Shown here: positions 3,184 through 12,367 of the stretch, piece by piece | Layout of the letters: each line of letters opens with the position of its first letter | Numbering within the stretch: the stretch's first letter is position 1 | Origin: a virus | Direction: 5' to 3' (one strand) | DNA length: 23,653 nt | IMG/VR virus record: IMGVR_UViG_3300027777_000149 | Coordinates: 1 to 23,653 of that record | The notes under the pieces: generated by a model | The model's input: the letters and a program-made list of their open reading frames with translations, nothing else | Told to the model about the DNA's origin: nothing | Database searches by the model: none | Translations under genes and position numbers: made by a program

Positions 3184-4508
3184 TACCAGCCCCACACTCT
3201 GACTTGACCTGCCGCACCTTTACCGCCTGCACCACTTCCTGCTACCGCATTACCGCCTGCTCCACCACCGCCACCGCCTCCACATGGGTAACCGCCATCT
3301 CCACCTGCGCCACCTGTCGCAGAAGCAGTAGAACTAGAAGCACCTCCGCCGCCTCCTCCACCAGCCCAACCAGCAACTGCTAAACCTTCACCACCTGCTC
3401 CACCAACAATTATACCTCCAGCCGCACCACCACCTGATGTTATTGCTCCTAATGCGCCATTAGTACCGCCTGCTCCACCAGCAGATGCCGCACCTGCGGA
3501 AGTTACACCAGCACCTGATGCTCCTCCACCACCACTAAACCATGAGCCGTAAGAAACAGAACCATTCAACCCAATTGTCGAAGATGGTGTTCCGCTTGCG
3601 CCTCCTAAAAACGAAGGAAATCCGGGGCTACCGCTACCTGCCCCTCGACTATCGGAATAAGGTGAGAAAGTAGCAGAACTGGCAAATGCGTTTCCACCAG
3701 CAACTGCCGAATTACTTGTTGCAGAAGAACCAGCAGAAGTAGCCCCTGCACCTGAACCGCCACCACCTCCAGCCCCTAAAGTCTGCCCACCTGCTCCTCC
3801 ACCACCAGCATATCCAATTAAATAAGTACCAAAAGATGAATTGTTGCCAACTGAACCATTGCTACCTGCGGCACTAGTAGCACCACTAGCGGCAGATGTT
3901 TGTGAGCCAACAGTAACAGTTACAGTAGATGGTAAATCTTTAGCAAGGAATAACTGACGAGTGCGTTTACCTCCACCGCCACCGCCACCGCCTTGAAGAA
4001 TTGCACCATTTACTGCGCCTTGACCGCCACCACCGCCTCCGCCACCGCCTGAAACTTCAACAAGGAAGAAACGACAGTTTCCGGGCTTATACCAAGTGCC
4101 ATTAGCATTAAAATCTTGAACCCATCCTGCTCTTAAATCAGCGATACCACCCGATACTCCAACAATCCCCCAACCATTTTGGTCTGTGTATTGAAGTGTT
4201 TGTCCCCTAAGAACAGAGATAGATTTAATTGTTTCGTACTTTGTACCCGATACATTGAACTGAACAGTTACCACAATCGTAGTGGTATCAGCGTTGTATA
4301 TCGTGATATTGTTTACTTTGCGTTGTGTACTTGCGGCTGGTGCAGAAAGAATTGTTACAACAGTTGTTGAATTAGTAGTTGTTGCATTTAATGCAGGTGT
4401 TGTTGTTGTTGCTGAAAACTCAACATAATCCACAGTAACGGGTGATTGATTAGTAGCAACTGCGCCACCAAGCAAAATTTCAAGCGTTTGGGTTGAATCA
4501 ATAATCAT
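3183..4508 (-). CDS. Glycine-rich fibre/adhesin-like protein, copy C
   Basis: This 441-residue protein is the first of the triplet in transcription order. The start ATG at 4508 overlaps the fibre stop in an ATGA arrangement. The N-terminus [20 protein letters not shown] is followed by [16 protein letters not shown] and [15 protein letters not shown], the same head domain as A and B. A Gly-rich region starts around residue 155, with runs such as GGGGGGGGG and GSGAGA, and the protein ends GQVRVWGW. All three copies end in a short beta strand with a terminal Trp, possibly the bundle base or a chaperone-recognised end. I infer an exposed adhesin made with the upstream fibre. It is the most diverged of the three in its central loops. 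Confidence 0.85.
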
Positions 4509-6301
4509 AGACGCAAACTAACTCTTTTTAAAACTTCGGGTTGTGTTAATCCACTACCCCCACCACTTGCCGCCGCCCATGTAGCCGTAGTTCCGTTAGA
4601 TGTTAAAACATAAGTGCTTGCACCAATAGCAAGCCTAGTTGCACTATTAGTTCCGTTTCCAATAATCAAATCGCCTGTTGTTGTTATTGGAGACAAAGCG
4701 TTAAAAGCCGCACCTGCCGTTGTTTGACCTGTACCGCCATTTAAAATTGGCAAAGCAGTTCCGCTATATGTAATAGCTAGAGTTCCTGATGATGTTATAG
4801 GTGAGCCACTAATAGATAAAAGCGAAGGTACTGTTGCCGCTACGCTTGTTACTGTTCCTGACCCTGCTGGAGTTGCCCAACTGCCATCACCTCTCCAAAA
4901 TGTTGTAGCCGAAGCACTTGTACCACTATTAAGGTTGGTTACGGGCAAATTTCCTGTTACTTGTGTTGCAAGGCTGACGTTTGCTAATGTACCGCCAAGA
5001 GTCAGATTACCACTTGATGTGACTGTGCCTGTGAGCGTGATGCCGTTAACTGTTCCTGTGCCGCCTACGGATGTTACAGTCCCGCTACCCTTGTTATTAA
5101 ACGTAGTCCAGTCAGTAGAAGTTAAGTAACCGCTTACAGAAGTAGTAGCGGCAGGCATAGATATAACTGGTGTTGCACCACCTGTGGATGCAACAGGACT
5201 TGTTGCAGTTACATCGGTAACTGGTGCTGTTCCACTTGATGCGGCAGTTATTAAACCTTTGCCGTTAACTGTAAGAGTTGCATTTGTAAATGAACCAACA
5301 TTGGTGTTTACAGTTGCCAATGTGCCTGCGGCAGTCACATTTGCCGAGCCATCAAAACTTGGGCTTGTGTATGCCAAATCTCCCGTAACTGCTATTGTTC
5401 TGCCAGTTGTAAGAGTTGCGGCTGAACCCGTTGTGTTTTGATTTAATGTAGGAAACGATGTAAGTGATGCGGCTGAACCTGTTGGTGCAAGTACATCAGT
5501 ACCAATAATTAAACCTAAAGAAGTTCGACCCGTTGCCGCAACCAATCCAGTTGCACCACCATCCCACTTTAATCTGTCTGTGTAAGCAGTATCCCAATTA
5601 CTTTGACTAGAAGTTGTAGGTATTGCGTAACCAGCCGTATAACCAATAGCCAAAGTTCCGTTTGTAGTTATTGGAGAGCCACTAACTGTCAAACCCGTTG
5701 GAACAGAAGCTGCAACGCTTGTAACAGTTCCTGAACCACCACCAGTTACAGTTGACCAAGATAAATTAGTTCCATCAGTCTTTAGATACTTATTAGCATT
5801 GCCAGTTTGAGCAGGAAGTACAGTACCTGCACCACCTGAAGTCACTAACTTAATCTTTTCAGCCAACTCAGGGGCAACAACCTCACCCACATTTAATTCT
5901 TTTCCTGTGGACAAGGTAATAACGAGTGAACCATCAAAATCAATGTGAGCATCTGTTACAGATACCCCATCAGACCCATCTACTCCATCTTTCCCATTAA
6001 TGCCGTCACGACCATCACGACCATTTTGACCTGCTTTACCATCTAGTCCTTTATCGCCCTTGTCACCTTTGTCACCCTTTTCAGGAACAATGGATTTGGC
6101 AACTTCTAGTTGCTCAGAAACCTTCTTTTCCATCACTTTGATGGCTTCAACAATCAGGTCTACATTGTCTTGAACTGCTTGCTCCTCTTGTGCTCTCATC
6201 GCAACAAGAGTTTCCTCCATCTGATTGATAGCGGCTAACTTCTCATCAAAGGATGAGTCTGCCGCCTCAATGCTTTGAATGAGGTCTTTGATGTTAGCCA
6301 T
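4505..6301 (-). CDS. Tail fibre protein with coiled coil, collagen-like stretch and beta repeats
   Basis: This 598-residue protein begins with a charged alpha-helical region (about 1-70, ESEQ/EKK-type heptads) likely to form a trimeric coiled coil. Residues 76-111 are twelve uninterrupted Gly-X-Y triplets ([21 protein letters not shown] and so on), a collagen-like triple helix common in phage fibres. The rest is Thr/Ser/Gly-rich with modules starting [10 protein letters not shown] and containing [13 protein letters not shown] or [13 protein letters not shown], plus [15 protein letters not shown], a motif frequent in phage tail fibres. It ends [12 protein letters not shown]. The ATG overlaps the portal stop by 8 bases and the stop overlaps the glycine-rich copy C start. 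It is probably the main tail fibre or its shaft, with the following proteins as tip adhesins. Confidence 0.9.
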
Positions 6302-10266: not shown

Positions 10267-10477
10267 GATAAACAAGAGGCTCATCTCTTTTTTGAGATAC
10301 ACCCACATACGGGTAATGTCTTACATCTGTCTGAAACACCAGTTTCATCTTCTTTTCTAAATCAGGATTGGCTTGTTTGGGTAAAAGTCTAATTTTACCT
10401 TCTCGTGTGGGTAGGAGGCTCCCACAAATATTTCACGCCTTGACCACCCCCTCCCCCCATACAAACCCTTAATGGTT

Positions 10478-10522
10478 TACCCTCATAGGGTTTACCCTGA
10501 CAGGGTTAACACTCATAGGGTT
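10478..10522. repeat. Three tandem palindromic 15-mers
   Basis: Three 15-base units follow each other without gaps: TACCCTCATAGGGTT, TACCCTGACAGGGTT and AACACTCATAGGGTT. In the first two the core ACCCT-NNN-AGGGT is a perfect inverted repeat; the third has a changed left arm. A period of about 1.4 helical turns and the symmetric core look like an operator or iteron array. The binding protein is unknown; no match to a named operator is claimed. Confidence 0.7.
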
Positions 10523-10572
10523 ACTACTACTGTAAGAATATACAGTTGTATTTATGCAACAGTAGGTTATTG

Positions 10573-10595
10573 CAAATGAGAATCATTCGCATTTG
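10573..10595. promoter_or_regulatory. Fur-box-like 23-bp palindrome
   Basis: The 23 bases form an inverted repeat around a central C with ten of eleven pairs matching. The core TGAGAAT-C-ATTCGCA agrees with the classical 7-1-7 Fur consensus TGATAAT-N-ATTATCA at 11 of 14 positions, and the flanks CAAATG/CATTTG extend the symmetry. Fur is the iron-responsive repressor of proteobacteria. The site lies in the control region upstream of the clamp block. It could instead bind a phage repressor with similar preference. Confidence 0.55.
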
Positions 10596-10687
10596 AGTCT
10601 ATATATGATTGATGCACCCTTATCTATAGTCCTTATTACTTTTAGATATATAAATTATTTAATCAATTACTTAATACTTTAATCTAC

Positions 10688-10739
10688 TAGGGTTTATCAT
10701 AGTATAAATAATGGGAAAACATAGGGTTTATCCTAGTAT
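10688..10739. repeat. Pair of 18-base direct repeats, 34 bases apart
   Basis: TAGGGTTTATCATAGTAT (10688-10705) and TAGGGTTTATCCTAGTAT (10722-10739) differ at one base and are spaced start to start by 34 bases, close to three helical turns. The AGGGTTTA core resembles the arms of the 15-mer array upstream, so the same protein may bind both. Confidence 0.6.
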
Positions 10740-10825
10740 CTTTTAAATAGTAGTGACGTTATATTATCTGTACTGGTTAACAATAATCAGTATCAATCAA
10801 TCAACTAAATAGGCGTTTAAACATC

Positions 10826-10909
10826 ATGGATAAAACCGATAAAATCACTCTTTTGGCTTGCCTGCTGGCTTCGCTTGCACTTGGCATCATTTTAACTATT
10901 TACAACTGA
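10826..10909 (+). CDS. Very small membrane peptide
   Basis: This 27-residue frame (MDKTDKIT then a hydrophobic stretch LLACLLASLALGIILTIYN) encodes a short charged head and one transmembrane segment of about 19 residues. It is the first open frame after the control region and is followed 70 bases later by the clamp gene. A weak purine-rich AGGCG lies about 10 bases before the ATG. Composition is typical of small phage membrane peptides, but at this length chance cannot be excluded. A role cannot be assigned. Confidence 0.45.
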   Translation: MDKTDKITLLACLLASLALGIILTIYN

Positions 10910-10917
10910 AAGAGTTT

Positions 10918-10979
10918 AGACTGAAGGGTATAACGTACCCTTTGGCCTGTACTTTTGCAGGGTTTAAAAGGTGTAAAAA
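10918..10979 (+). promoter_or_regulatory. Structured leader element, copy 1 (upstream of clamp)
   Basis: It starts AGACTG, then a perfect 7-bp hairpin AAGGGTA-TAACG-TACCCTT (10924-10942), then GGCCTGT (10944-10950) able to pair with GCAGG (10957-10961), then AGGTGTAAA (10969-10977) containing the ribosome-binding site before the ATG at 10980. The same order of elements occurs upstream of the next gene (11632-11719). I read it as a duplicated 5'-leader RNA structure; its function is unknown. Confidence 0.5.
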
Positions 10980-11627
10980 ATGAAATTCACAATTCAACGC
11001 AAACAATTAAAAGCATTATCTAGATTTTCTGCAATTAAAGATATACGTTATTATTTGCAGGGTATCCATGTAGTGCAAAATAATCGGGGTACTTACTTAG
11101 AGGCTACAAATGGTCATATATTAGGCCGATTATTGATAGATGAAACACCATGCGAGACACAATGTAGTGTCATTATCCCTAATGATGCAATTAAGACATT
11201 AGCGGCAACGGGTAAAAAAGGTGAGGAAACCCTATTCTTTACAGTAGACGGGGCAAAAATTACAGTTATTGGCATGGATAGCACTACTTATACATTTGGG
11301 GTGTTAGAGGGTAATTTCCCCAAATGCGACCAAGTAATGCCAAAAAACCTAGATGATTCCCAAATTGCACCAAGCACATACAATCCTAATTATGTTATGG
11401 CATTTCACGATTGTGCGGCGGATTTATCGGGCAATAAAAATCCAAATGGTGTAGCAGTATCTTTTAAACAAAGAGGCAACGATAGCGGGTTAGTTGCCTT
11501 GGACTGCACCGATTTATTTATTGGAATCATCATGCCCATGCGTGACAACTGTATAAACCCTAATATCCCTGCATGGTGCAATAGACCTACTGTAAAACCA
11601 GTAGAAAATCAACCAGTAGAGGCTTAA
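10980..11627 (+). CDS. Shortened DnaN-like sliding clamp
   Basis: This is a 215-residue protein, against about 366 for bacterial DnaN. The N-terminal half follows the middle domain of DnaN: KDIRYYLQGIHV, LEATNGHILGR, SVIIPNDAIKTL, then FGVLEGNFPKCDQVMPKN (compare the DVRYYLNG, ATDGHRLA, DGRFPDY pattern of the host clamp). The C-terminal part has PNYVMAFHDC and ends its domain in IIMPMRDN, like the VMPMRL end of DnaN. The first clamp domain and apparently the first half of the third are missing. Clamps ring DNA and tether polymerase; this one may recruit the host polymerase or act as a decoy. It has a good ribosome-binding site (AAGGTG). A Pro/Val-rich tail of about 20 residues follows. Confidence 0.8.
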   Translation: MKFTIQRKQLKALSRFSAIKDIRYYLQGIHVVQNNRGTYLEATNGHILGRLLIDETPCETQCSVIIPNDAIKTLAATGKKGEETLFFTVDGAKITVIGMDSTTYTFGVLEGNFPKCDQVMPKNLDDSQIAPSTYNPNYVMAFHDCAADLSGNKNPNGVAVSFKQRGNDSGLVALDCTDLFIGIIMPMRDNCINPNIPAWCNRPTVKPVENQPVEA

Positions 11628-11631
11628 TTTC

Positions 11632-11719
11632 AGACTGTAAACCCTTCAAAAGAGGGGTTTATGGCCTGCAATTCGCAGGGGCTATGTTTAGCATAGTTTA
11701 ATTTTCTTATAGGTGTAAA
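11632..11719 (+). promoter_or_regulatory. Structured leader element, copy 2
   Basis: It has the same layout as the element before the clamp: AGACTG (11632), hairpin arms AAACCC/GGGTTT (11639-11660), GGCCTGC (11663-11669) pairing with GCAGG (11675-11679), then AGGTGTAAA just before the ATG at 11721. The closing pair of the second stem changes from U-G in copy 1 to C-G here, a compensatory-type difference. An extra hairpin CTATG-TTTAG-CATAG (11682-11696) followed by a T-rich run could act as a weak terminator or attenuator. Confidence 0.5.
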
Positions 11720-11720
11720 C

Positions 11721-12047
11721 ATGAAAACAACTGTATCAATTCACGATTTTAGAACCGCATTTTCACAATTAAGACCCGATAATTTTACTTATGAGGGTTT
11801 AGCCGTCTTATTTGATTACTTTGAAGATTGTGAACAAGATGGCGAGGAATTCGAGTTAGATGTTATCGCTATTTGTTGCGAGTTCGCAGAGGCCACATGG
11901 CAAGAAATAGCCAACGATTATTTGCTTCACGATAAAACCCTTGACGATGAGTCACAAGACCATAAGTCAAAGGTTCTGGACTATTTGGCAGATGAGGGGG
12001 TTTTAATCGGTGAAACCGATGATTCCATTGTTTATCGCCAACATTGA
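11721..12047 (+). CDS. Conserved-type phage hypothetical protein, acidic
   Basis: This is a 108-residue acidic protein with the pattern FRTAFSQLRPDNFTYEGLAV, LFDYFEDCEQDGEEFELDVI, AICCEFAEATWQEIANDYL and a C-terminal VLDYLADEGVLIGETDDSIV. I recognise this as a protein family found in many unrelated phages, usually in early regions, but know no established function. It is predicted helical at the N-terminus with a small beta C-terminus, cytoplasmic. It sits behind the second structured leader with a good ribosome-binding site (AGGTG), so it is probably co-regulated with the clamp. Confidence 0.8.
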   Translation: MKTTVSIHDFRTAFSQLRPDNFTYEGLAVLFDYFEDCEQDGEEFELDVIAICCEFAEATWQEIANDYLLHDKTLDDESQDHKSKVLDYLADEGVLIGETDDSIVYRQH

Positions 12048-12345: not shown

Positions 12346-12367
12346 AACCCACTTCGGTGGGTTTTTT
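12346..12367 (+). terminator. Intrinsic terminator closing the clamp block
   Basis: Perfect 7-bp stem AACCCAC / GTGGGTT around a TTCG tetraloop (12346-12363), followed by further T residues. It lies 20 bases after the preceding stop codon, before the convergent minus-strand operon. The UUCG-type loop and U-run are classic for rho-independent termination. Confidence 0.85.

Follow-up and report, generated by a model that had tools for sequence, protein, structure and literature searches.

What is the structured leader that stands twice before neighbouring genes in the IMG/VR virus record IMGVR_UViG_3300027777_000149, and what might it do there? The DNA analysed, which we call the window, is this whole record of 23,653 bases. 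It contains a short plus-strand operon made up of an open reading frame (ORF) of 27 amino acids, a sliding-clamp-like gene, a gene of 108 amino acids and a small third ORF. One copy of the leader lies before the clamp gene and the other before the 108-amino-acid gene, as follows:

10826-10909, plus strand: 27-amino-acid ORF encoding a hydrophobic peptide, upstream of copy 1; stop TGA at 10907-10909 (from the sequence)
10910-10919, plus strand: copy 1, strand A of the alternative helix P0; 9 of 10 pairs with strand B at 10947-10956 (from the sequence, and from register and covariation across copies)
10918-10923, plus strand: copy 1, conserved AGACTG; lower strand of H1 plus the A of a conserved A x C mismatch
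10921-10945, plus strand: copy 1, hairpin H1; 10921-10930 with 10936-10945
10946-10961, plus strand: copy 1, hairpin H2 (strands B and C); 10946-10951 with 10956-10961, then GTTT
10970-10982, plus strand: copy 1, ribosome-binding site AGGTGT and the ATG of the clamp gene
10980-11627, plus strand: DNA polymerase sliding-clamp-like gene, 215 amino acids; stop TAA at 11625-11627 (PF02767, E 4.8e-07)
11626-11633, plus strand: copy 2, strand A, which overlaps the clamp stop codon by two bases; partner strand B at 11666-11673
11635-11664, plus strand: copy 2, hairpin H1; 11635-11647 with 11652-11664
11665-11679, plus strand: copy 2, hairpin H2; 11665-11669 with 11675-11679
11680-11707, plus strand: copy 2, extra hairpin H3 and T-rich tract TTTAATTTTC; core 11682-11686 with 11692-11696 (predicted fold; counterpart in the related locus L131)
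11710-12047, plus strand: copy 2, ribosome-binding site TAGGTGT and the next gene (11721-12047, 108 amino acids, phrog_9974)

The operon ends, between convergent operons, at a strong intrinsic-terminator-like site (12346-12363, CCCACTTCGGTGGG-TTTTTT), by comparison with which the leader hairpins are much weaker. The hydrophobic peptide encoded at 10826-10909 (MDKTDKITLLACLLASLALGIILTIYN) may serve as a leader peptide or as a small protein of the membrane, and in several relatives similar small hydrophobic ORFs end near the leader. PHROG 3007 labels the family of the clamp gene a RusA-like Holliday junction resolvase. The domain that Pfam recognises is that of DNA polymerase III beta (the clamp), and the PHROG name seems to be a wrong annotation that has passed into phage records. 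The gap between the divergent operons (10468-10740) holds direct repeats of the AGGGTTTA type, three of them at 15-nt spacing, and is possibly a replication origin or operator region. Elsewhere in the window, 4505-6301 on the minus strand encodes a tail-region protein of 598 amino acids with a collagen-like repeat (PF01391) near residues 76-112.

In both copies of the leader the parts come in the order AGACTG (10918 and 11632), hairpin 1, TGGCCTG...CAGG, AGGTGTAAA and ATG (10980 and 11721), and this order is matched at two places in the window and in none of 100 dinucleotide shuffles. The duplication and the shared order are thus just as the original prediction described them, and so is the change of one stem 2 pair from U-G to C-G (10950/10957 versus 11669/11675). 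The additional hairpin and T-rich tract that it saw in copy 2 are also present, and this hairpin recurs in L131 with compensatory changes. The extent of the leader needs revision: the parts described stand, but the element, about 60 nt in size, does not start at AGACTG. Its start lies further upstream, at 10910 and 11626, since the 5' arm and loop of stem 2 pair with bases that adjoin or overlap the upstream stop codon, in a third helix that the prediction lacked.

A protein search with the clamp gave 18 related loci, and in the gaps flanking their clamps the element recurs, in the same or a divergent form, both before the clamp and before differing next genes. Copies were also retrieved by two stricter pattern scans of IMG/VR, a first broad scan that returned mostly chance matches having been dropped; the stricter scans constrained H2, so our statements on H2 covariation rest on the unconstrained copies and the clamp-derived loci. 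When only AGACTG...TGGCC was searched for, the H1 stems divided cleanly into those of 0-3 bp (chance) and those of 8-12 bp (real), and the H2 stems, which this search did not impose, included CCTTGG/CCAAGG, CCCAGT/ACTGGG and CCTAAT/ATTAGG. Altogether there are about 130-146 distinct copies from uncultivated IMG/VR phage contigs, with up to four clear copies per genome, all within one operon; the further copies in related phages that had been envisaged therefore exist. A second, clamp-based retrieval, free of leader bias, gave 80 loci with 104 model matches (some of which are antisense shadows), and there the leader adjoins most clamps above about 40% identity. Four loci (L198, L213, L216 and L238) have the same leader with a quite different H1 (e.g. 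TAGCGCATGC) and belong to another phage group; in L211 at least, a GP88-domain gene lies upstream of the leader.

Comparison of the leader with 50,697 phage records by blastn gave chance matches only, and the RNA model had no match in 369 gammaproteobacterial genomes, in a search run without a positive control. A search for the host by way of the clamp found relatives at 24-26% identity only. Rfam 15 has no match at the gathering threshold in the window or 15 related loci, and the relaxed threshold gave chance-level matches only, which agrees with the suggestion that the element may be undescribed. The RNA element is real and is new as a family. Its significance is that of a well-supported structured RNA family absent from Rfam, in which a two-fold competition is evident from the sequence alone.

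Hairpins H1 and H2 abut, with no spacer between them. In 25 diverse copies 99.3% of the cells in the two hairpins are paired, and their covariation is 0.442, versus 0.120 when shuffled (0 of 500) and at most 0.070 when slid; the compensatory changes of a conserved RNA fold, surmised earlier from two copies, are thereby borne out. The sequences of H1 are far apart (TAAACCC, TAGCGCATGC, AAGGGCA) and pairing is always kept, with U.G pairs conserved on one strand. There is almost no variation in AGACUG and UGGCC, and H1 above them varies freely; its lower part is an invariant CUG/UGG in the canonical copies, and its base has a conserved tandem U.G/G.U and the A x C mismatch. In divergent copies found by the covariance model, A-U replaces C-G, and A-U or U-A replaces G.U, at the H1 base, and AGACUG/UGGCCU becomes AAACCA/UGGCUU, AGGGUA/UCACCU or AGCCUU/CGGGCU in divergent groups. 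H2 is only 5-8 bp long. It is followed in canonical copies by G and then by U at 92, 95, 87 and 58%, a short tract (3-5 U) that is weak in divergent copies (GCATTTT, GGATTCA). A closing helix of AGAC with GUUU was considered and rejected, as the AGCC group keeps GUUUUUU and the copies with the extra hairpin shift the T tract behind that hairpin.

The third helix, P0, is apparent from base -1, which was never used for retrieval and which covaries with base 42 in the H2 5' arm (0 of 2000 shuffles); the pairs are U-A in 88 copies, C-G in 32, A-U in 5 and U.G in 10, with 11 not paired. Linkage to H1 fails as an explanation, since differing (-1,42) pairs are seen with the same H1 in nine H1 types. 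The whole strand from -7 to 2 (stop codon to AG) pairs with 40 to 48 in a single register, the diagonal i+j=41 having a z of 11.9 and all others less than 1.6 (individual values are 10.6 for -1/42, 8.5 for -3/44, 5.9 for -4/45, 7.4 for -5/46, 6.5 for -6/47 and 9.0 for -7/48). Over 79 rows the covariation of P0 is 0.357, versus 0.175 shuffled and at most 0.153 slid. The helix has constant interruptions at positions 3/39 and -2/43, and 10 of the 146 copies have G-A at -1/42 and few other P0 pairs. Fifteen divergent leaders with other sequences have a mean of 7.7 P0 pairs versus 3.6 with shuffled A strands, the single examples not all being significant.

Base 42 also pairs with the H2 3' arm, and the resulting triples are mostly U-A-U, C-G-C and A-U-A, which, as a pattern in the alignment, is the signature of a putative strand exchange. 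The helices A:B (P0) and B:C (H2) share strand B and are mutually exclusive, and both covary. When every pair of leader segments outside H1 is scanned, these two pairings are by far the strongest, and no signal links the ribosome-binding site to any part of the leader. When copies are folded in silico without strand C, P0 forms in at least 99% of them; with strand C, the H2 form is better by 6-17 kcal/mol. In canonical copies the equilibrium favours H2 over P0, so that any effect of P0 there would have to be kinetic. Two competing folds very probably exist in this RNA.

The element occupies the gap between one gene's stop codon and the next gene's start codon. An upstream ORF could be identified for 135 copies, and in 127 of these its stop codon stands 2-6 nt ahead of AGACTG. 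On the other side, 142 of the 146 copies are followed by an ORF start, at a distance of anywhere between 10 and 68 nt, and every one of these 142 has the sense orientation relative to the gene that it precedes. The flanking proteins fall into 29 clusters downstream and 26 upstream, where the ORFs are mostly full genes (Pfam names among the flanking proteins include ArdC-N, DUF7222, DUF7249 and GP88), and the element therefore belongs to the gap and not to a gene. Among the close relatives L123-L140 the gene after the clamp has been swapped (several unrelated small proteins occur there) and the leader before it has been kept, which points to a modular exchange of genes here.

What, then, might the element do in the gap? 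We give an even chance to the reading that each copy is a three-strand (A, B and C) RNA transcription attenuator between two co-transcribed phage genes. The sequences themselves bear out that there are three helices, that P0 and H2 exclude each other, that the element is placed at stop codons and that a T-rich tract is present; the two exclusive helices together with that tract favour transcription attenuation over control of translation. In the proposed scheme strand A adjoins or overlaps the upstream stop codon, and H2 supplies the other two strands, B being its 5' arm with the loop and C its 3' arm; H1 is placed between A and B, and P0 would stack on it. As the RNA emerges, A:B could form first and act as an antiterminator; once C has emerged, B:C and the short U tract could take over as an intrinsic terminator. 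A ribosome ending at the upstream stop codon would cover A and block P0, favouring H2 and termination before the next gene. When no ribosome is terminating there, P0 would delay H2 and the polymerase would read on.

The ribosome finishing the preceding gene is suggested as the input because the spacing of the element is tight to the stop codon and loose to the next start, and a ribosome at that stop codon is the probable switch. In E. coli a ribosome at a stop codon shields about 10 nt of RNA beyond it and is unable to block a terminator lying more than 27 nt past the stop (PMC4824070). By these E. coli figures strand A is inside the ribosome's reach and H2, about 43 nt past the stop, is outside it, so that A would be masked by a terminating ribosome and H2 would remain free. 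We infer that H2 terminates transcription; termination there may be partial or absent, given the short U tract and the 5-8 bp of H2. More tentatively, the element may be a gene-independent attenuator that reads the translation termination of an ordinary gene, sets the transcription of the next and is reused in tandem, with whole genes acting as the leader peptide. Should the proposal hold, the element would link the end of translation of one gene to transcription of the next as a portable part, with which phages could balance neighbouring genes and accept swapped-in genes without losing control.

Control of the next gene's translation, the role originally suggested for the leader, finds no counterpart in the covariation, since nothing in the leader covaries with the ribosome-binding site or the start region; hiding of the ribosome-binding site by the leader is likewise rejected. 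A leader that binds a protein or ligand to control translation, with the invariant AGACUG/UGGCC base of H1 as recognition site, would accord with the near invariance of these motifs beneath a freely varying stem, and the conserved tandem U.G/G.U and A x C mismatch do resemble a binding feature. It is nevertheless unlikely in view of that missing covariation, of the replacement of both motifs in the divergent groups and of the 29 unrelated protein families downstream, which also argue against a single-metabolite riboswitch. We think it improbable, too, that this is an intercistronic processing or stability element, in which a double-strand RNase would cleave P0 plus H1, or the stacked H1-H2 would shield the ends of the mRNA. 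P0 and H1 make a long imperfect helix of about 20 bp with mismatches at fixed positions (3/39 and -2/43), the position is intercistronic and T7 early RNA is cleaved at intercistronic hairpins, but such a role leaves unexplained both the complementarity of B to A as well as to C and the U tract directly after H2.

The elements might also be plain weak intrinsic terminators or pause hairpins, P0 being merely a folding guide with no regulatory role. H2 with its T tract is indeed the most stable state in canonical copies; the A-B pairing, however, is specific, compensated, in a single register (z 11.9) and kept in divergent leaders, which makes this quite improbable. The chance that the RNA acts directly on RNA polymerase, like HK022 put, is very slight. 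Two directly adjoining stem-loops in a phage early region recall put, which also has a 5' AGAC pairing within its stem (PMC9378689), but the element model finds no sequence or structure match in the HK022 genome (best E 0.6, a fragment of the model only), and put acts once per operon on distant terminators, whereas a single genome here has as many as four copies, each with a gene of its own. Equally slight is the chance of a DNA-level module, a recombination junction or protein operator that is palindromic by chance. The kept leader before differing genes behind the clamp would make it a possible junction for gene exchange, but widely different H1 sequences (such as TAAACCC, TAGCGCATGC and AAGGGCA) that always pair, with conserved U.G on one strand, speak for RNA, as does the sense orientation of all 142 copies for which a start codon is identified.

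Among known systems, the SAS/ESAS elements of cluster K mycobacteriophages are repeated leaders with an inverted repeat and ribosome-binding site before several genes. By description only, our element shares these properties; we know of no strand-exchange architecture in SAS/ESAS elements. With HK022 put it shares two adjacent stem-loops in phage early-region RNA, but put has RNA polymerase as its binding partner and does not recur gene by gene. The Polynucleobacter-1 RNA motif (RF01718) is a candidate cis-regulatory RNA from freshwater Burkholderiales metagenomes (PMC2864571), and the Rfam scan found no match to it in the window or the 15 related loci. In the pyrBI attenuator and the intrinsic terminators close to stop codons (PMC4824070), as is proposed here, the position of the ribosome near the stop sets terminator efficiency; there the ribosome covers the terminator hairpin itself, whereas here it would cover the antiterminator strand, with the terminator about 43 nt away. 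The element resembles the trp-type attenuator (the trpL-trpE leader) in having mutually exclusive hairpins with a common strand, antiterminator and terminator in trp and putatively so here, and a stop codon at which a ribosome ending translation would mask the first strand and so promote the terminator; the geometry here fits such masking. The trp leader has a short leader peptide with regulatory codons, whereas the element follows full-length genes of many families, recurs independently of the gene between several genes of one phage operon and has the constant extra hairpin H1 between A and B, and its termination is predicted. Being without a regulatory leader peptide, gene-independent and repeated, the element is not filed as a member of the trp-type class.
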